IMG/VR virus record: IMGVR_UViG_3300035183_000067
Coordinates: 1-46,692 of that record
Source: a virus
Direction: 5' to 3' (one strand)
DNA: 46,692 bases
In this document: one piece after another, positions 31,891-42,816 of the stretch
Layout of the letters: each line of letters starts with the position of its first letter
Numbering within the stretch: the first letter of the stretch is position 1
Notes under the pieces: generated by a model
The model's input: the letters and a program-made list of their open reading frames with translations, nothing else
The model's database searches: none
What the model was told of the DNA's origin: nothing
Made by a program: the position numbers and the translations under genes

Positions 31891-31966
31891 TGGCCCCCTC
31901 GGGAGGAATCGAACCTCCGTCTAGAGAGTTAGAAGCTCTCTGCGTCATCCACTACGCTACGAGGGG
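31891..31966 (-). tRNA. tRNA-Arg(UCU)
   Basis: A complete cloverleaf on the minus strand: acceptor CCCCTCG/CGAGGGG, D-arm GCGT/ACGC, anticodon stem GAGAG/CTCTC with loop CTTCTAA (anticodon TCT), T-arm GGAGG/CCTCC with TTCGATT, discriminator G and encoded CCA. It would read AGA, a codon used very often in this genome and usually scarce in proteobacterial hosts. Confidence 0.97.
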
Positions 31967-32228: not shown

Positions 32229-32750
32229 TCAATACGGAATGTCGTCAGTCAAGTCTTCAAGACCAGTAACAGAGAGATCAAATTTTCCTTTGTCTGCTTC
32301 CTCCTCTTCAACTTCAAACACCCAATTGCAGAATTGCTCTGCCAACTTCATCACCTCTTCGGCAGACGGAATGTTTTTTTCCGTCTTCAACAGGTCAATG
32401 GCTGCCGACAGGCTGGACTGCCGAACGATGAGCCGTTGACGGAGAGCCCTTTCTTCCGGAGTTTCATACCGGCTATTATCCTGTTTTTGAGGAACTGCCA
32501 CAGGAACACCTCCTACCTTAGACACATCTACCCACTCCCAAAATCCACGGTCGTTCTTCTCTGGCTTGACTTCCAAGACATCTCCTGCCTTAACTTGCGC
32601 CAGCTTGGCGAACACGCCCGGGTTTGAGAAAGACATTGCAGTGTACGTTCTTTGCTGTCCTCCTTGTTTGTAAGTAACGTTAATTTTTTGATAAGTGTTT
32701 TTACCTTTCTTTACAGTTTCCGTGCTGATGTCTTCTACTTTTACTTGCAT
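32229..32750 (-). CDS. ssb: Single-stranded DNA-binding protein
   Basis: 173-aa protein. An N-terminal OB-fold-like region (about 1-75: TYQKINVTYKQGGQQRTYTA, FAKLAQVKAGDVLEV) is followed by a helical part and an acidic C-terminus ending LTDDIPY, very close to the DDIPF tail of bacterial SSB. It lies directly after DNA polymerase and overlaps it by 10 bases. A perfect consensus promoter lies about 150 bases upstream, inside the polymerase gene. Confidence 0.75.
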   Translation of the reverse strand: MQVKVEDISTETVKKGKNTYQKINVTYKQGGQQRTYTAMSFSNPGVFAKLAQVKAGDVLEVKPEKNDRGFWEWVDVSKVGGVPVAVPQKQDNSRYETPEERALRQRLIVRQSSLSAAIDLLKTEKNIPSAEEVMKLAEQFCNWVFEVEEEEADKGKFDLSVTGLEDLTDDIPY

Positions 32751-33493
32751 GTGATCTCCTCATTTCTATCAAACTTTTTCAAGTTCAATAGATTCTTACC
32801 ATAAGAAACTTCCCCGGCCATAGGCACATTGAAGGGAAGTTTAAACACCTTCTCAAAGTTCTTGGGCAAATCCTCGAATACTTGTTCCAGTGTTATACAG
32901 ATATTATAACACAATTCTGGGTCGTTGTCAACATCCAACTGGATATCGTCGTGAACAGTATTGAAGAACTTGATCCTTTCTGGATATTCAGGCATTCTTG
33001 AGATTCTATTGAAGGCACTAATCCTTGCAATCATCATCAAGTCTGCACTGAACCCCTGCACTGGATAATTTAGAATTTGTGTTCTAGGCCATTCCATTTC
33101 TCCTTTGTAGTTGGGATACTGCTTGAACCTAAACGTCCTCCCGGTCGGGATGGTAAGAAATCCTTTGTTACGAATCGTCTCCCTGATGATAGTAGTATGC
33201 CACTTTGCGAGGCCCTTGTACTTCTTGTAGGTCCTCTCAATAACTTCTTCCCAGAATTTCAAGTCGCCAATGCCGTCAAAATCAGGGTCAACAGAATAAC
33301 TATAGGCACTTCCCCCATAGATAAGACGAAACAGATACTTCTTAGCAATGAGCCTTGAAGGAAGTCCGAACATCTTTTGGTTGTTTTCGTGTGCATCTAC
33401 TCCCTCTACAATTTCCCTAATAGCAACTTCATCTTGAGACAGATAAGCGGCAGCTCTCCACTCAAGCGCTTTTGCATCTACCTTGATTAGCAT
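32741..33493 (-). CDS. DNA polymerase A, C-terminal part (palm/fingers)
   Basis: 250-aa polymerase half. Motif A is VDAKALEWR (Asp6), motif B is R47-x3-K51-x3-F55-x3-Y59-G60, and motif C is HDD at 181-183. It is in the same frame as the upstream half, and its ATG follows that half's TAA directly. GAGG lies six bases before the ATG, so separate reinitiation is possible. Aligned to family A enzymes, the TAA replaces exactly one residue in the loop before motif A. The gene is thus either a split polymerase or one interrupted by readthrough or mutation. Confidence 0.92.
   Translation of the reverse strand: MLIKVDAKALEWRAAAYLSQDEVAIREIVEGVDAHENNQKMFGLPSRLIAKKYLFRLIYGGSAYSYSVDPDFDGIGDLKFWEEVIERTYKKYKGLAKWHTTIIRETIRNKGFLTIPTGRTFRFKQYPNYKGEMEWPRTQILNYPVQGFSADLMMIARISAFNRISRMPEYPERIKFFNTVHDDIQLDVDNDPELCYNICITLEQVFEDLPKNFEKVFKLPFNVPMAGEVSYGKNLLNLKKFDRNEEITCK
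32903..32931 (-). promoter_or_regulatory. Perfect sigma70 promoter inside the polymerase gene
   Basis: On the minus strand TTGACA (32926-32931) and TATAAT (32903-32908) are separated by exactly 17 bases. Both boxes are consensus despite lying in coding sequence (around residues 187-196 of the C-terminal polymerase half). Transcription would start about 145 bases before the SSB gene and give extra mRNA for SSB, tRNA, dUTPase and nucleases. Confidence 0.75.
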
Positions 33494-34657
33494 TTAATAC
33501 CTCGTGATAATAAACTCCCGAACTCCTTCCTCCACGTTTTGCATGTTAGGATTGCTACTAGACAATCTTCCAGTAGCAGCAACAGATTGGTTCAACTGTC
33601 CGTGCAAGATGTTGTCCTTGATTTCATACTCTTCAAGCATGTTAGGGAAACCAAGATAATAGCTGTCAATTGCTTTCATCAATTTGCTCCTCTTCAAGAG
33701 GATGTTGATGATGTGTTTCACCTTTTTGTTCCCTTTCAGAGACAGCAGAATCTTCTCGTTGGTTTTCCAATACCCCGGCTTAGCGCACTCTGTCTTCTTC
33801 AGAGGTTCTACCAAGCGAGGCATTTTGACTTCTTTGACTACCCAATGTTCCCTAACACGCTCTTCACCAGACTTAAGAACCTTGGTGTATTTCTCCCGGA
33901 CTTTATACTTGAGAATCCCTCCATATAGACAAGCACTGATGTGATCATCAGAGCTCCAATTGATGTGGGGATTGGGGAAAAACTTAAACAACTCTTGATC
34001 ACACTTCTTAACTTCTTCCTGAAGCTCTTTTCCTTTTCTCAAGAGTCCTTCCTTGTCTAGGAGCATTCCATTCCATTCCATCTCACACAAGATTTTCAAG
34101 TCCAACATCTGGAGCTTAAACAGACGCATCTTCTCTGGTCTGTCTTTGAACCACTCCATTTGTTTCTTGAAGCACTCTTCTGTTAGACGGACATCCTGCT
34201 CTAGATACTCAACAAGGATTTCTTCTGGGATTTGATCTGTGTTGTATCCCTCTTCCCAATACTTAGCGACTTTGTCTTCTTTCTTCCCAATGCCCCAATA
34301 ATCTGCAACATCATTCAAAGACGGGAGCTTTTGAGTCATGTTCGTCATGAGGAAGTGAGCAACCTGAACATCCCAAATCTGCTTGTCTTTCCACTCCTCA
34401 AATCCATACAGGCGAATCCAATGCAAATCAAACTTGGCATTAAAAGCTACAATAACATCACACGACTTCAGGCTCTCTTTCCAGATATTCCAAAGCTCGT
34501 CTGTCTGTTTCTCAGATTTGTACTTTACTGGAATAGTAACTACGTCTCCGTTGTTAGAGAAGCCAAGATACACAAGCTCGTTGTTAGGATTCCAAGGACT
34601 ACCACTTTGTCTTGTAGTAGTCTCTGTATCAAAGACAAGGTATTTCATGCTATTCAT
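33494..34657 (-). CDS. DNA polymerase A, N-terminal part (exonuclease/thumb)
   Basis: 387-aa half with an intact 3'-5' proofreading domain: FDTE (Asp10, Glu12), FNAKFD (Asn73, Asp77) and YLEQD (Tyr151, Asp155). The thumb/palm follows, up to TGRLSSSNPNMQN. It ends REFIITRY-TAA. ATG 34657 overlaps the upstream stop as ATGA and is preferred over 34672. Together with the downstream half it makes about 638 residues, near the T7 polymerase length (704). Confidence 0.92.
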   Translation of the reverse strand: MNSMKYLVFDTETTTRQSGSPWNPNNELVYLGFSNNGDVVTIPVKYKSEKQTDELWNIWKESLKSCDVIVAFNAKFDLHWIRLYGFEEWKDKQIWDVQVAHFLMTNMTQKLPSLNDVADYWGIGKKEDKVAKYWEEGYNTDQIPEEILVEYLEQDVRLTEECFKKQMEWFKDRPEKMRLFKLQMLDLKILCEMEWNGMLLDKEGLLRKGKELQEEVKKCDQELFKFFPNPHINWSSDDHISACLYGGILKYKVREKYTKVLKSGEERVREHWVVKEVKMPRLVEPLKKTECAKPGYWKTNEKILLSLKGNKKVKHIINILLKRSKLMKAIDSYYLGFPNMLEEYEIKDNILHGQLNQSVAATGRLSSSNPNMQNVEEGVREFIITRY

Positions 34658-34899
34658 GAAAGCCCGTCCCATTCAATATTGGCGCTGTAAATAATCCTGC
34701 TTGCTACTGCCAGTGCCTCTATAACATTAAAGCCAATCTTCCCAAATTCTATCGTATCCTCTGTAGTAGATGCTGCAACTAAGATGGCTTCGATATCTCC
34801 TTTCTTTGCTCTCTCAAGGAGAGATTCCAAAAACTCAACTATCTCTTGGTTAAAGACAGGAGGATTTGTTTTAGGGGAAATTTTTTTAATGTCCGCCAT
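34654..34899 (-). CDS. Hypothetical replication-operon protein
   Basis: 81-aa protein starting MADIKKISPKTNPPVFNQEI. ATG 34899 has AAAGGA seven bases upstream and is preferred over a longer start. The helical middle includes ESLLERAKKGDIEAILV, a pattern seen in small phage proteins of unknown role. Its stop overlaps the polymerase ATG. Confidence 0.65.
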   Translation of the reverse strand: MADIKKISPKTNPPVFNQEIVEFLESLLERAKKGDIEAILVAASTTEDTIEFGKIGFNVIEALAVASRIIYSANIEWDGLS

Positions 34900-37587: not shown

Positions 37588-38358
37588 TTATTCTCCTTTT
37601 TGTTGTTGTTCTAGAAATTTCTCAATTGCTTCTTTGTACTTCAGAACAGTAGTGCCTTCAATGCCGGGAGCAGAGTTTACTTCAAAGACACAAGCAAGAT
37701 TTTTCTTTTCGTTATACCCTACGTCACAAGCGCCGAAGGTTAGCCCTACTGCCTTGATAGCTTGTTTTGCAGCTTCGGCGCAGCATTCAGGCAACTCTAC
37801 ACCTTCTCTGCAAAACACCCAGTCACCATGATTACGAATCTGATAGTTTACATCCTTAGCCTCCTTTCTTTTTTTCTTCTCCACAAAATCGATTACTTCT
37901 CCGTTGAAGACGTGAATCCTGAATTCTCGTTTCTTCTTAAAGTATTTTGTGTATAACGGAGCATCTGGCAATTCTTTCCCAGAATCTTTATTCCAGATAA
38001 TAATACCACGTCCTCCTTTTCCTGTCAAGATAGTCCTACACACAACAGTATCCCACCCAGAAGCTACTTCCTTGTCTGTTGTCCACTCAGGACAAGGAAC
38101 TTGATGTTCGCCGAACTTCTTGAAAGTTAGGAGCTTATCGCGGGAGATGGCAACACTTTCAGGCGTGTTCAGGATAACTTGGTTGGGCCACCTGTCCATC
38201 CACCAAGCACGCTTGCTATTGCCCCAATTGACAATTGGCCTCTTGAAATTGTTCCTGAACAATCCAAACTGTCTAACCCGTTTTATTCCAAGTGCTTCAG
38301 AAAGTTTTTTTGCTGAGCTTGAATTCATCTTATAAGGATACAAAACAGGTCGCCTCAT
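37588..38358 (-). CDS. ATP-grasp ligase, amidoligase cluster
   Basis: 256-aa compact ATP-grasp protein with the phosphate-binding loop TGKGGRGIII, KYFKKKREFRIHVFNG and the metal-binding FGACDVGYN and FEVNSAPGIEG motifs. Enzymes of this group ligate amino acids to carboxylates, as RimK adds Glu. It is two bases from the class II amidotransferase and heads toward the amidoligase genes, as in phiEco32-like clusters described by Aravind and colleagues. The substrate is unknown. Confidence 0.85.
   Translation of the reverse strand: MRRPVLYPYKMNSSSAKKLSEALGIKRVRQFGLFRNNFKRPIVNWGNSKRAWWMDRWPNQVILNTPESVAISRDKLLTFKKFGEHQVPCPEWTTDKEVASGWDTVVCRTILTGKGGRGIIIWNKDSGKELPDAPLYTKYFKKKREFRIHVFNGEVIDFVEKKKRKEAKDVNYQIRNHGDWVFCREGVELPECCAEAAKQAIKAVGLTFGACDVGYNEKKNLACVFEVNSAPGIEGTTVLKYKEAIEKFLEQQQKGE
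38000..38028 (-). promoter_or_regulatory. Possible internal promoter in the ATP-grasp gene
   Basis: TTGACA (38023-38028), 17-base spacer and TATTAT (38000-38005) on the minus strand. It falls on the conserved Gly-loop codons, so the resemblance may be forced by the protein sequence. It could boost the zinc-ribbon and primase genes. Confidence 0.35.
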
Positions 38359-38359
38359 T

Positions 38360-39658
38360 TTAAGCTCCTTTCACGAGGACTCTAGGGAACAAGGGGTGTG
38401 TGGTGTCCATTTGCTGAGCGATGGAACACTGCGGACAAAAGATAACTTTGTGTGCTTTATTCCAAATTGATCTTGAAATATCTTCACCTTTCACTTCAGA
38501 TTTGCAAATCTCACATCCGTTATTTTTAACCTCTTGGATGTCCTTTTCAGAAAGGTAGTGCCCATTTTTTGAAATGTAATTTGTAACTGTGACAACATTT
38601 TCAACAGAAACAACGTATTTGATTTGAGAGTTTTTAGCTTTGTTTTCCCTAATTTTCGTGACAGTTCCTCGAAGGAACCTAGCCAAGATAATGTTATCTT
38701 CTTCTTTGGAATCCACAACAGAAGACACTTGATACTCACTAGACCACGGAAAAGTTCCTACGACAAGAACTTTCCCTTTACCAATTCTTTTTGTATCCAC
38801 TAATTCAAAGTAAACTGTATTTCCTTCTCTGACAGGAGAATTCAAAAGCCTTGGCTTCTCTTTTACTACTTCGAGGGGTTTCTTTTCTTCTTCTTTGATC
38901 GGAGTAACTTCTACTGCCTTGGCAGGTACTTGAATAATAGGAATTCTGAATTTGTATTCTTTAACGTCCCAGTTGAGGCCGTCTTCAAAAACATCAACAG
39001 AGAACATTACTCCGGGGTAAACTTCTTCAATCTCAAGCCTGACTTGATTCCTTGCACTAATCCATTCCATAGCTCCCTTTTCAGAGGACAGCACAAGGAT
39101 ATCCTCATCCTCATTATATCCCATGAATAAGGGGCGTTCTTTGTTACGAATGAAATTAAGTCTTTCACTTCTTCTGTCATAAAAGACAAAAGCAAATGCT
39201 CCACTAATCCTCTCAAATACTTCTTCATAAGGGAGGTCACAAAGCAGAATAGGAACGATGCTGCTGTCCACCGACAGATTGTGCTCCTTCCACTGCGGAA
39301 ATTCATAGTGATTGTGCAAAGTCCCGTTGTGGACAAGCACAATATCTTTATACCAAAACGGGTGGGCGTTTTCACTGTTAACTTGTCCGCGAGTAGCGGC
39401 TCTATTGTGACCGACAATAGACACTCCACGAGCCAAAGAATCGCGTAAGAAAGAAGTCCCTTGAGAGTTCCCTAGAAAGTTAAATGGGTTCCCGTGAACT
39501 TTGGCAATGGATACCTTTTTGTTTCGATTAATCGTAAATGCTCCCGTTCCGTCTTCTCCCCTGACACTATCCACAATCAGTAGTTGTTTAAAAATGTCCA
39601 GATGATAGGAGAACAGGCCACCTTTTCTAAAACTCGTAACTGAAACAATTCCACACAT
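38360..39658 (-). CDS. Class II glutamine amidotransferase
   Basis: 432-aa protein. The Ntn-hydrolase domain starts MCGIV, so Cys2 becomes the N-terminal nucleophile after Met removal. GHNRAATRG and VHNGTLHN follow, then GAFAFVFYD. It releases ammonia from glutamine. Instead of a GlmS or AsnB synthetase domain, the C-terminal half is an unassigned region ending in a zinc ribbon (CEICKSE, FCPQCS). Ammonia could be passed to the neighbouring ligases. Confidence 0.88.
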   Translation of the reverse strand: MCGIVSVTSFRKGGLFSYHLDIFKQLLIVDSVRGEDGTGAFTINRNKKVSIAKVHGNPFNFLGNSQGTSFLRDSLARGVSIVGHNRAATRGQVNSENAHPFWYKDIVLVHNGTLHNHYEFPQWKEHNLSVDSSIVPILLCDLPYEEVFERISGAFAFVFYDRRSERLNFIRNKERPLFMGYNEDEDILVLSSEKGAMEWISARNQVRLEIEEVYPGVMFSVDVFEDGLNWDVKEYKFRIPIIQVPAKAVEVTPIKEEEKKPLEVVKEKPRLLNSPVREGNTVYFELVDTKRIGKGKVLVVGTFPWSSEYQVSSVVDSKEEDNIILARFLRGTVTKIRENKAKNSQIKYVVSVENVVTVTNYISKNGHYLSEKDIQEVKNNGCEICKSEVKGEDISRSIWNKAHKVIFCPQCSIAQQMDTTHPLFPRVLVKGA

Positions 39659-39678
39659 ATTTACTCCTTTCTTAGGAT

Positions 39679-40695
39679 TTAAACATCACCATTATCTTCT
39701 TCTTTTTTCCTCCTCTTTATTGCTCTCCTGTGAAACTCTGCGAAAGAGATCACAAGATTGTTGTTGTTCTCTTCACAATATTTAGTGAAATCTACAATAG
39801 AATTCGGGGGTGTCACACAATCTTTCACGTTGGAAATGGAACAAGAAAACTCTTTTTCAAATCCTTTTGTAGCAAGTAAAGGCAAAAGATTCCCGAAAAT
39901 CCTTCCTAGAAAGTTGTGGTATTCGCTCTTCACATTCAGATTTACAAGGGTTGTAACTAGATTTTCAAAATTAGTTACTTCCATTGCCGCCTTTTTCAAT
40001 GACAGAATTATATTAATCCAATTTACTATCAAGTCAACGTCTCTTGTTCCATACAAATGCCTGAATTCAACTGTTCCATACCTAAGAATTGGGAGAAGAT
40101 TTAGACCGAGGTATTTTTTCCACTCTTCTATAATGGACTTGAAAGCATGCAAATCATCAATTATAACTTCTGTCAGTTCCTTGTTATTTATTTTAACAGC
40201 ATTATAAATGTGGAGGAAATAATTCGTATTTTGAAGAGGAACACAAAAGATATTATTTTTCCTCTCTCTTCCAACAAATCTATAGAGAAGCCTTTCTGTT
40301 ACATAATACAACAAAACAAAAGATACAAGCTGATTGATATTCATGTCTTGCACATTGACATGAATGTGAATTCCTGTTCTTGACGTGAATTGAGGCTCGT
40401 TCTCTTCCTCTAATGCTTCCATCAATCTATCGAGAGCAAATCTTGCATACTTTGCTGGGATTGGCAAAGAGATAAACTCTCTTCCCCAGTTCCTGAGAGA
40501 GCCGTCTTCCGTGATATCCCAAATGTTAAGTGCTTCCTTATTTCTGATTGGATTACAAATGTTTTCTACTTCTACCTCAATCCCAATGAAACAATCTGGA
40601 AGAGGCGAATTGTTTTCATAAGGAGCCCCTATAAAATCAACAGGTTTGCATGGAGTTCCTTTTCCGAATACCAGATTAAACGGAAATTCTAACAT
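39679..40695 (-). CDS. Amidoligase, glutamine-synthetase-like
   Basis: 338-aa protein of the phage/fungal amidoligase family: FIGIEVEVEN (strand with metal-binding Glu), ITEDGSLRNWGREFIS, RTGIHIHVNVQDM (His pair) and a final YGTVEFRHLYGTRD. The GS-like core activates a carboxylate with ATP and joins it to an amine. ATG 40695 has AAGGAG seven bases upstream and is preferred over a longer frame. It overlaps the next gene upstream by 20 bases. Confidence 0.85.
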   Translation of the reverse strand: MLEFPFNLVFGKGTPCKPVDFIGAPYENNSPLPDCFIGIEVEVENICNPIRNKEALNIWDITEDGSLRNWGREFISLPIPAKYARFALDRLMEALEEENEPQFTSRTGIHIHVNVQDMNINQLVSFVLLYYVTERLLYRFVGRERKNNIFCVPLQNTNYFLHIYNAVKINNKELTEVIIDDLHAFKSIIEEWKKYLGLNLLPILRYGTVEFRHLYGTRDVDLIVNWINIILSLKKAAMEVTNFENLVTTLVNLNVKSEYHNFLGRIFGNLLPLLATKGFEKEFSCSISNVKDCVTPPNSIVDFTKYCEENNNNLVISFAEFHRRAIKRRKKEEDNGDV

Positions 40696-41359
40696 AGAGA
40701 TTCTCCTTGTCAAAGAAATCTTCTGCTTCCTGTAAGAAGTTTTTGTGGCAAAGTTTGAACAATTCTTTTTCCTTGTCTAGCTCCCCTATAACGTTTTGCT
40801 TCCTCAACAACATAAGTTTAACCCCCTCATTAGGAGAGGGAACAAACGCATAATTACTATCTACTGCTGCCGAAAATCGCTTCTGCGAAACAATAGAGTT
40901 GATTGCTTCAGAAGCAGAATAGAATTTCTTGTTGAATGTTTCTAGCATCTCTGACATCGTCCAGCTAAAAGAAAAGCTCTTTAGATTATCAATTAAAGGT
41001 CGCACAGGAGCAAGATAACTATAGTGCAAATGCTCAACAAGCTGTTTTTGCGGATTTACTACATAATGGCTTGCTTTACTAAGGCCCCTCTTCCACTGTC
41101 TTTCTGCATTTCTTACAATATACAAAACACCATCTTTGTAATTAACAAATCCTTCTGGTGTTTTGTGCAATACATTCAAATACTCTACAGGAACTTCCGC
41201 AGAAGTTCTAGGATGATGATAAACAATCGCAAAGATATCTCCCTCCAAATTCATGTGGAAGGAATCAATATAAATCGGGACAATTTCATCTCCTTCTTTT
41301 GACCAGAAGGTAGCTTGTGCATATTTCCTTCTGTAGTCTTCTAAGCTTTCCTCATACAT
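40676..41359 (-). CDS. Unknown protein of amidoligase cluster
   Basis: 227-aa protein without a family I can name. It has a beta-rich N-terminal half (DEIVPIYIDSFHMNLEGDIF) and a helical C-terminal half (LETFNKKFYSASEAINSIV). GGAGG eight bases before the ATG. It lies between the two GS-like ligases with overlaps, so it probably supplies the substrate or a partner of the pathway. Confidence 0.7.
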   Translation of the reverse strand: MYEESLEDYRRKYAQATFWSKEGDEIVPIYIDSFHMNLEGDIFAIVYHHPRTSAEVPVEYLNVLHKTPEGFVNYKDGVLYIVRNAERQWKRGLSKASHYVVNPQKQLVEHLHYSYLAPVRPLIDNLKSFSFSWTMSEMLETFNKKFYSASEAINSIVSQKRFSAAVDSNYAFVPSPNEGVKLMLLRKQNVIGELDKEKELFKLCHKNFLQEAEDFFDKENLYVRISV

Positions 41360-41371
41360 TTCTTTTCCTCC

Positions 41372-42163
41372 TTATTTCGGAATGATGAGAGAATATTTCT
41401 CAACAAAATAAGGAATGTTTTTCACTTTATTTTTGTTAATTGTTTCTTGAATCATTTCTGCATCTTCATCAACAGAGAAACCAGAATTGATAAAGTTAAC
41501 TGCTTGCATCGTTTGGTCATAGACCATTTCCATCAATTCTTTAGACGCAAGCCAGAAGTTACTCAGACTCCGATATTCAATCCCATAATCCTTGTGGCGC
41601 ATCGCTCCTGCTTTCCCGTAAAGTTTCCTGCGCTTTGTGTCTTTATCAATCAAAAGTGCAGGAATTCCTGCAAACACATCCATTGCTTTTGCAAGGGAAT
41701 AATTCAATTCAATGGACTTCTTGATGGACTTAAATCCAATGTGAATGTGCCCTCCCGCACTTCTCAGAAGTTTATTGCTTGCTCTTGGGCGGGGATTAAG
41801 TTGTCCTGTCCAAGCATTGTAATCGGGATCACATCCGAAAACTTTAGCCAAAGGATGTTCAAGTTCTTCTGGAGAAAACTCCGCAGAAGCGGAGATATCA
41901 AGTTTCCATTCCTTCTCCCTTACAAAGGAAGAGAGAAAATCCAAAGTATATTGGACAGATTCCACAAATTCTTCCTTTGTCTTTGCTGGCGGAATGTTAA
42001 ACTCTGCTGCTACATTGTCTTGCTGGATTGCAAATGCTCCGTTAAACTTAAACGGCATTGTTTTTGTTCCCGGGATAACCCCAATCGAGGAACGATACTT
42101 GCCTTCCTTGTCTCTTAGGAAAACTTCAGGATCGCATCCAATTGTTACGTTAGAAAGGATCAT
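41372..42163 (-). CDS. COOH-NH2 ligase type 2, GS-like (phiEco32-like)
   Basis: 263-aa protein. Signature parts are TIGCDPEVFLRD, DNVAAEFNIPPA, AEFSPEELEHP, the RSAGGHIHIGF motif and GIEYRSLSNFW, all expected for this GS-like carboxylate-amine ligase group known from phage phiEco32. It should form an amide bond using ATP. ATG overlaps the class I amidotransferase stop. Confidence 0.88.
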   Translation of the reverse strand: MILSNVTIGCDPEVFLRDKEGKYRSSIGVIPGTKTMPFKFNGAFAIQQDNVAAEFNIPPAKTKEEFVESVQYTLDFLSSFVREKEWKLDISASAEFSPEELEHPLAKVFGCDPDYNAWTGQLNPRPRASNKLLRSAGGHIHIGFKSIKKSIELNYSLAKAMDVFAGIPALLIDKDTKRRKLYGKAGAMRHKDYGIEYRSLSNFWLASKELMEMVYDQTMQAVNFINSGFSVDEDAEMIQETINKNKVKNIPYFVEKYSLIIPK

Positions 42164-42816
42164 AGCAAATACTCCTTGATGAGGTTAGAGCAATATTCTA
42201 CCCCAGGGTGACCGAGGGGCAGAAATTCAGGGTGCCCTTGAATTGCGAGGGCCTTTAGTTCCTCGAAGAATACAATTTCTGGCTCGATAACTTCTCCTTT
42301 CTCTTGTTTCGCTTCTGGAGGAAAGTAAACTTCTCTGTTCCATCCATCCAAATAAGTATCGCTTAATCCTTCTGTCCATGAAATGATCTTCTTCTTCTCT
42401 ACATTCCACGGATACATCATTTGGTGATGAGTAGAAGAGATAGGAATATCTTTTCCGTGAATTGTTTTGATGTAGTGGCTTGCTGTGTGATTTGTTACGT
42501 GTTGAATTAATCTGCCACCAGCCGCTACACAAAGCAATTGAGCACCCCTACAAATCCCCAGAATTGGGATTTTCATGTCCACTGCTTGGCGCACTAGATC
42601 GAATTCTAGGGAATCTCTAAACAAATCTGGTGAACTTGTAAATTTACCCCTAGGCTCTCTATATGCCTTGGGATTAACATCTGTTCCACCTTCAAGGATT
42701 AGAATGTCTCTCGGCTTGAAATCAAAATCGTGGTGCCGAATGACGACATTCTTTCGTGTAATTTCTGGAAAGCATGAAGCGACTCCAAACATTCCTAAAG
42801 AGGTTACAAATCTCAT
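42160..42816 (-). CDS. Class I glutamine amidotransferase (PuuD-like)
   Basis: 218-aa peptidase C26-type protein with a catalytic triad: Cys89 in GICRGAQLL, and His195 and Glu197 in QGHPEFLP. The N-terminal LILEGGTDVNP is typical. Relatives hydrolyse gamma-glutamyl amides such as gamma-glutamyl-GABA. In this cluster it may remove a protecting glutamyl group or deliver ammonia. It overlaps neighbours on both sides by 4 bases. Confidence 0.88.
   Translation of the reverse strand: MRFVTSLGMFGVASCFPEITRKNVVIRHHDFDFKPRDILILEGGTDVNPKAYREPRGKFTSSPDLFRDSLEFDLVRQAVDMKIPILGICRGAQLLCVAAGGRLIQHVTNHTASHYIKTIHGKDIPISSTHHQMMYPWNVEKKKIISWTEGLSDTYLDGWNREVYFPPEAKQEKGEVIEPEIVFFEELKALAIQGHPEFLPLGHPGVEYCSNLIKEYLL

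Follow-up and report, generated by a model that had tools for sequence, protein, structure and literature searches.

The OM43 phages MEP401 and MEP402, together with related metagenomic genomes, carry a family A DNA polymerase that is encoded by two genes, and the 2023 paper that described this split suggested an intron as its cause (PMC10580990). The split T4-like 43A and 43B products copurify with polymerase activity, and the split NrdA of Aeh1 is active (PMC2988022). Split family A polymerases appear in neither PMC2147016 nor PMC11348598. Here we describe a locus that shares the break site of MEP401 and MEP402, in a virus record of 46.7 kb from IMG/VR; the whole of this stretch is referred to below as the window, and it carries terminase, portal, helicase, primase, exonuclease and ribonucleotide reductase genes. 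A tRNA-Arg (TCT) gene at 31891-31966 (minus strand) lies between a dUTPase-like gene and the polymerase region, and a cluster of RimK/S6-glutaminyl-transferase-like, glutamine amidotransferase, amidoligase and COOH-NH2 ligase genes (37588-42816, minus strand) adjoins the replication module.

The polymerase of the window is laid out on the minus strand as follows, with the evidence for each feature in brackets.

34672..33494, minus strand: N-half polymerase gene, with the 3'-5' exonuclease, the thumb and the first palm strand (ORF, Pfam, PHROGs, dN/dS).
33491..33503, minus strand: junction and putative stop-restart site, with GAGG at 33503-33500, TAA at 33496-33494 and ATG at 33493-33491 (sequence).
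33493..32741, minus strand: C-half polymerase gene, with the rest of the palm, the fingers and motifs A, B and C (ORF, C-terminal part of PF00476, dN/dS).
33461..33478, minus strand: motif A, DAKALE, intact, five codons past the restart ATG (conserved in 100/101 aligned C-halves).
33311..33355, minus strand: motif B region, RLIAKKYLFRLIYGG (sequence and alignment).
32945..32956, minus strand: motif C, VHDD (sequence and alignment).

The initial annotation, which left the strand unstated, had described two halves in one frame, a TAA followed directly by an ATG, and a GAGG just before it; all of this holds on the minus strand, where GAGG lies six bases 5' of the C-half ATG and zero nucleotides separate that ATG from the TAA. 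The N-half ORF comprises 392 amino acids counted from its first ATG and the C-half, in the same frame, 250. Position 34657, first given as the outer end of the gene, is indeed an in-frame ATG of the N-half, but the ORF already opens at 34672; another later in-frame ATG, at 34648, is where the relatives begin and is the likely true start.

Pfam placed PF01612 (32.6 bits) and the N-terminal part of PF00476 (profile positions 51-132, 56.3 bits) in the N-half and the C-terminal part of PF00476 (positions 154-379, 67.4 bits) in the C-half, all above the gathering scores, and PHROGs agreed with a call of DNA polymerase. The catalytic residues are all kept (DTE at 15-17, NAKFD, YLEQD and TGRLSSSNPNMQN; DAKALE, RLIAKKYLFRLIYGG and TVHDD), and the alignment of relatives, in which the active-site residues are conserved in about 100 sequences, confirmed that the exonuclease residues and motifs A, B and C are intact, as had been noted from the window. 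These residues, together with PF00476 and PF01612, place the enzyme in family A. The family A replicative DNA polymerase of the window is encoded by two genes that run in the same direction, and the break between their ORFs lies, as in MEP401, between the QN motif and motif A.

AlphaFold2 was run on the joined window protein, with the TAA read as Gly and an alignment of 75 rows. The resulting model (mean pLDDT 93.1, pTM 0.89) is of one chain and says nothing on the assembly of separate chains; its best Foldseek matches in the PDB were the PolA-fold enzymes apPol, Klenow and KlenTaq, with E about 1e-26. In this model the stop, residue 384, closes a three-residue turn that connects two strands, and a cut in such a turn is of the kind that two chains could tolerate. 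In the single-ORF relatives a short turn, SR(W/F)-xGGK-I(L/M)EADF, occupies exactly the break site of the split enzymes. The first reading, that the stop replaces exactly one residue, stands in a gapless comparison with Taq, in which position 2 of the C-half profile aligns with Taq L606; when the closest single-ORF relatives (SRW-eggk-ILEADF) serve as the reference, about three residues of the turn are lost at the break, and the count therefore depends on the comparison sequence chosen. The break falls inside the palm, and neither half holds a complete polymerase domain. Because assembly is something that we only infer, it is conceivable that the two proteins act apart, the N-half as a nuclease and the C-half in some other role, and never form one polymerase; this is very unlikely, as the polymerase residues of both halves are kept in spite of the break inside the palm, and no other polymerase gene was found among the 22 window proteins scanned.

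Each half was searched by tblastn against 50,697 phage records. The top records common to both halves were MW202796, MEP401, MEP402, MW202697 and OK172329, with the halves at separate places. Their annotations show two polymerase genes with one small ORF between them in MEP402, 3.6 kb apart with several genes between in MW202796, with an R67-type DHFR-like gene between in MW202697, and with a one-base overlap in OK172329. Profiles of both halves then fetched about 150 loci from IMG/VR and the phage records, and a script placed the halves in stop-to-stop ORFs: they lay in different ORFs at 112 distinct loci and in a single ORF at 30. Three loci that the script scored as split (L043, L049 and L088) had unreliable N-half matches and were set aside, leaving about 109. 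All 30 single-ORF relatives are of the distant HMO-2011 type, with a C-half identity to the window of at most 36%, and from 40% upwards all loci are split. A family of small acidic ORFs (MEP402 gp14), which has no Pfam match, occurs between the halves in 38 loci, including L004:2766-2999, and in the uncultured phage MW202697 the gene between the halves (L006:3773-3979) is R67-type dihydrofolate reductase-like (PF06442, 2.7e-22).

The break itself is constant, with N-halves ending at profile column 384/385 and C-halves beginning at column 1 at nearly all loci. Over all 112 loci with the halves in different ORFs, the N-half stop is TAA in 54 cases, TGA in 36 and TAG in 22, the gap between the halves ranges from -17 to +3598 nt, and the relative frames of the halves (37/28/47) are indistinguishable from uniform (p 0.09). 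The C-half starts with ATG at 101 of these loci, and a Shine-Dalgarno core of at least 4 bases was found at 63/97 C-half starts, against 258/1936 internal ATGs. Frames, spacing and starts together point to separately initiated genes, and as a general mechanism neither readthrough nor an intron is compatible with them.

Two IMG/VR relatives bear directly on the junction. The first (L003, 98%) has, on an independent contig, the same TAA-ATG junction as the window, so that the search for this stop in relatives, proposed at the outset, was successful; the second (L002, 98% identical) has TGA with an ATG 4 nt later and its halves out of frame. Readthrough had been offered as one way to make the enzyme: a fraction of ribosomes would pass the TAA and yield a full-length polymerase beside the two halves. 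At low level it would give a plausible fusion in the window and in L003, where there is one frame and no gap, but we consider it very improbable, since the frame is random and the gap reaches 3.6 kb in relatives, the nearly identical L002 is out of frame, and the C-half has an ATG and a Shine-Dalgarno site of its own. The single frame across relatives that programmed readthrough calls for was not found. Stop-restart translation, the other initial proposal, accounts for the window and for loci whose halves overlap (-1 and -17 nt), but in most relatives the C-half is begun at a site of its own, further downstream by up to 3.6 kb; restart is thus only one variant of separate initiation.

A self-splicing intron interrupting the gene, as suggested for MEP401/402 (PMC10580990), would be in keeping with the frequency of group I introns in phage polA, and a probable one with an HNH ORF does occur inside the C-half at motif B in L055 (5326-5989), as also in L053 and L056; the L055 match (RF00028, E 1.2e-6) is below the gathering score and coexists with the gene split. 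At the break the same explanation is next to impossible: the zero-length junction refutes it in the window, where Rfam found no intron, group I or other, while other relatives have overlapping ends and in others still unrelated cargo genes separate the halves. Zero-length and overlapping junctions argue against an intron for the clade as a whole. An intein was rejected, as there is no intervening sequence.

Among the window, L002 and L003, each half shows about 44-123 synonymous but only 4.5-30 non-synonymous changes, and dN/dS was 0.014-0.035 for the N-half and 0.021-0.030 for the C-half; purifying selection is strong on both. Decay of the gene after a nonsense mutation could be read from a stop in frame within a conserved gene whose frame is kept on either side, but it is extremely unlikely: about 109 relatives have the split in common, dN/dS is very low before and after the stop, and all catalytic residues are retained. 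Nor is the window a lone mutant among uninterrupted relatives, a case that the initial annotation had set against its own reading. Sequencing error or chance was rejected on the independent contig of L003 and on dN/dS. That the locus encodes a two-subunit polymerase rather than a decaying gene is strongly supported by the split in about 109 relatives, purifying selection and conserved motifs. Taken as a whole, the initial interpretation is borne out in part.

A tree of 59 polymerases was built, including 39 main split representatives. These 39 form one clade (SH-aLRT 98) with all single-ORF rows outside, and the window groups with MEP402, apart from the single-ORF relatives (SH-aLRT 98). The main split clade thus has one origin, and a single ancient split, retained ever since, explains the window. 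The split of the ICP2 type falls among the single-ORF enzymes, outside the main split clade, and a tree with all split rows forced together was mildly rejected (AU p 0.037); ICP2 is probably a second, separate split, although the support for its separate origin is weak.

We consider it very probable that the window encodes a family A polymerase in the form of two subunits, often co-translated, which come together as one enzyme, the assembly being the part that we infer. The N-half ends at the beta-turn just before motif A, and initiation of the C-half would follow immediately, either by termination-reinitiation or at a Shine-Dalgarno site of its own; the two polypeptides would then associate non-covalently to form one active polymerase, and translational coupling would presumably keep their amounts nearly equal. 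With less certainty, the original split may go back to a single event in an ancestor, in which a free-standing homing endonuclease gene inserted at this site, and that gene may later have been lost or replaced by cargo genes. Such an origin is plausible, since in some relatives HNH genes occupy the junction; the window junction, at 0 nt, holds no HNH gene, and the origin is not readable from the window.

HNH genes in the relatives are associated with lesions of motif A, whereas the window's own motif A is intact. Of 114 C-halves examined, 14 have a motif A that is interrupted at a single point (DAK to LE), by -1, +1, +2, +4, +6 (with in-frame stop) or +8 nt, in a gene that is otherwise intact; six of the lesions hold an in-frame stop. 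The loci concerned, all with the lesion at the C-half start, are listed below.

L044, L048, L050, L052, L100, L113, L167, L170, L171, L176, L182, L186 and L200: IMG/VR loci with a motif A lesion.
L006: phage record MW202697, with a motif A lesion.

Where a cluster-4 HNH gene stands directly upstream, 11/12 loci have the lesion, against 3/102 of the others (Fisher p 6.6e-12, an optimistic value because the loci are related), and the ten HNH proteins with the best scores are each encoded immediately ahead of a lesioned C-half. C-halves behind lesions have dN/dS of about 0.03-0.14 in the pairs tested, which indicates purifying selection, and assembly error is unlikely because contigs from different samples share lesions. 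In 10/12 distinct cases the exact motif A would be regained if the ribosome slipped or hopped from one codon to a synonymous one, for example at CTT TAG CTA, CTG TAA CTG and CAA ATATG CAG; some of these matches could, however, be functionless outcomes of short repeat duplications or losses. The lesions are candidate natural ribosomal hops, and a 2016 review states that no natural in-frame stop-hop was known (PMC5009743). Introns had been entertained for L006, L044, L048, L050, L052, L100 and L113, whose C-half has no normal start, and were rejected, the DNA showing small motif A frame lesions instead. A group I intron running from the remnant MLxxA(D), which precedes the HNH gene, to the lesion was likewise dismissed, as no splice, on inspection, would bring back the D-x4-E spacing of motif A; Rfam found no intron in L100.

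Remnants of the original C-half start persist upstream of the HNH gene, in the stretch that follows the N-half stop (MLVNADV in L052, MLLQADA in L044, MLLQA in L170, MSLIQA in L113 and ILVNGDV in L048). A start remnant upstream and a recoded copy downstream of the HNH gene imply a cassette that duplicates its own insertion site. Such a cassette would comprise promoter-like sequence, the HNH gene, a Shine-Dalgarno site, a start codon and a recoded MLxxxDAKxL copy, and would meet the rest of the C-half at an imperfect joint inside motif A, which ribosomes would cross by synonymous-codon slips or hops, including natural stop-hops at CUU-UAG-CUA and CUG-UAA-CUG. We tentatively propose, with the chances slightly below even, that the window junction once held a homing cassette, since lost, of a kind that repeatedly re-invades split phage polymerases, and that ribosomes slip or hop across the motif A joints of the relatives. 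A different arrangement was seen at L223:3440-4240, where the N-half is followed by an HNH gene, a second copy of the N-half tail (RTGRLSSSRPNLQNFDGEIKGLFYSRYL) and an intact C-half.

With two subunits as the preferred reading, a replicative polymerase cut inside the palm, beside a catalytic aspartate, apparently works as two polypeptides across a large phage clade, and a testable model replaces the published intron suggestion. The natural split supplies ready-made split sites for PolA enzymes, and gene finders and marker-gene surveys should allow for polA being two genes in these phages. The HNH-linked motif A lesions are the more novel lead and deserve a study of their own, since the presence of HNH almost perfectly predicts the frame lesions and makes natural short ribosomal hops directly testable.

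Among the known systems, 43A/43B of Aeromonas phages 25 and 44RR is likewise a two-gene replicative phage polymerase in which a homing endonuclease gene can intervene (PMC2988022), but it belongs to family B, with an unrelated fold and split site. Aeh1 NrdA with mobE is an essential enzyme in two working polypeptides split by an HNH homing endonuclease gene (PMC2988022); unlike the window it is a ribonucleotide reductase, and its endonuclease gene is still there. T4 gene 39/60, a topoisomerase split by the homing endonuclease mobA and read through a 50-nt translational bypass (PMC5009743), has a decoding gap near the 5' end of its downstream half, as the HNH-carrying relatives appear to have, and the hops proposed here parallel T4 gene 60 with mobA (PMC5009743); the window itself is without a decoding gap. 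It works like the homing-endonuclease kind of gene in pieces, although we do not file it as a proven member.

Within family A, Vibrio phage ICP2 and ICP2_2013_A_Haiti (isolates L008 and L164) also have two ORFs split close to motif A, but 12-13 residues further upstream (after QNISN). An HNH gene lies between the halves in ICP2 and is absent from the Haiti isolate, which keeps the stop and the new ATG; ICP2 is annotated as one polymerase spliced around the HNH gene, an annotation that may be wrong. Uninterrupted homologues occur among HMO-2011-type and T7-like relatives, and the HMO-2011-type polymerases, the nearest single-ORF relatives at 32-36% identity in the C-half, differ from the window in having an uninterrupted ORF with the xGGK turn at the break site. 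The closest likeness is to MEP401/402, about 49% (C-half) and 40% (N-half) identical to the window, and the break site is the same in the window and L004. MEP401/402 have a small ORF of unknown function between the halves where the window has nothing, so that an intron is excluded in the window. The split itself had been reported for MEP401/402, and the window is a member of that already noticed clade, the meaning of which is now clearer.
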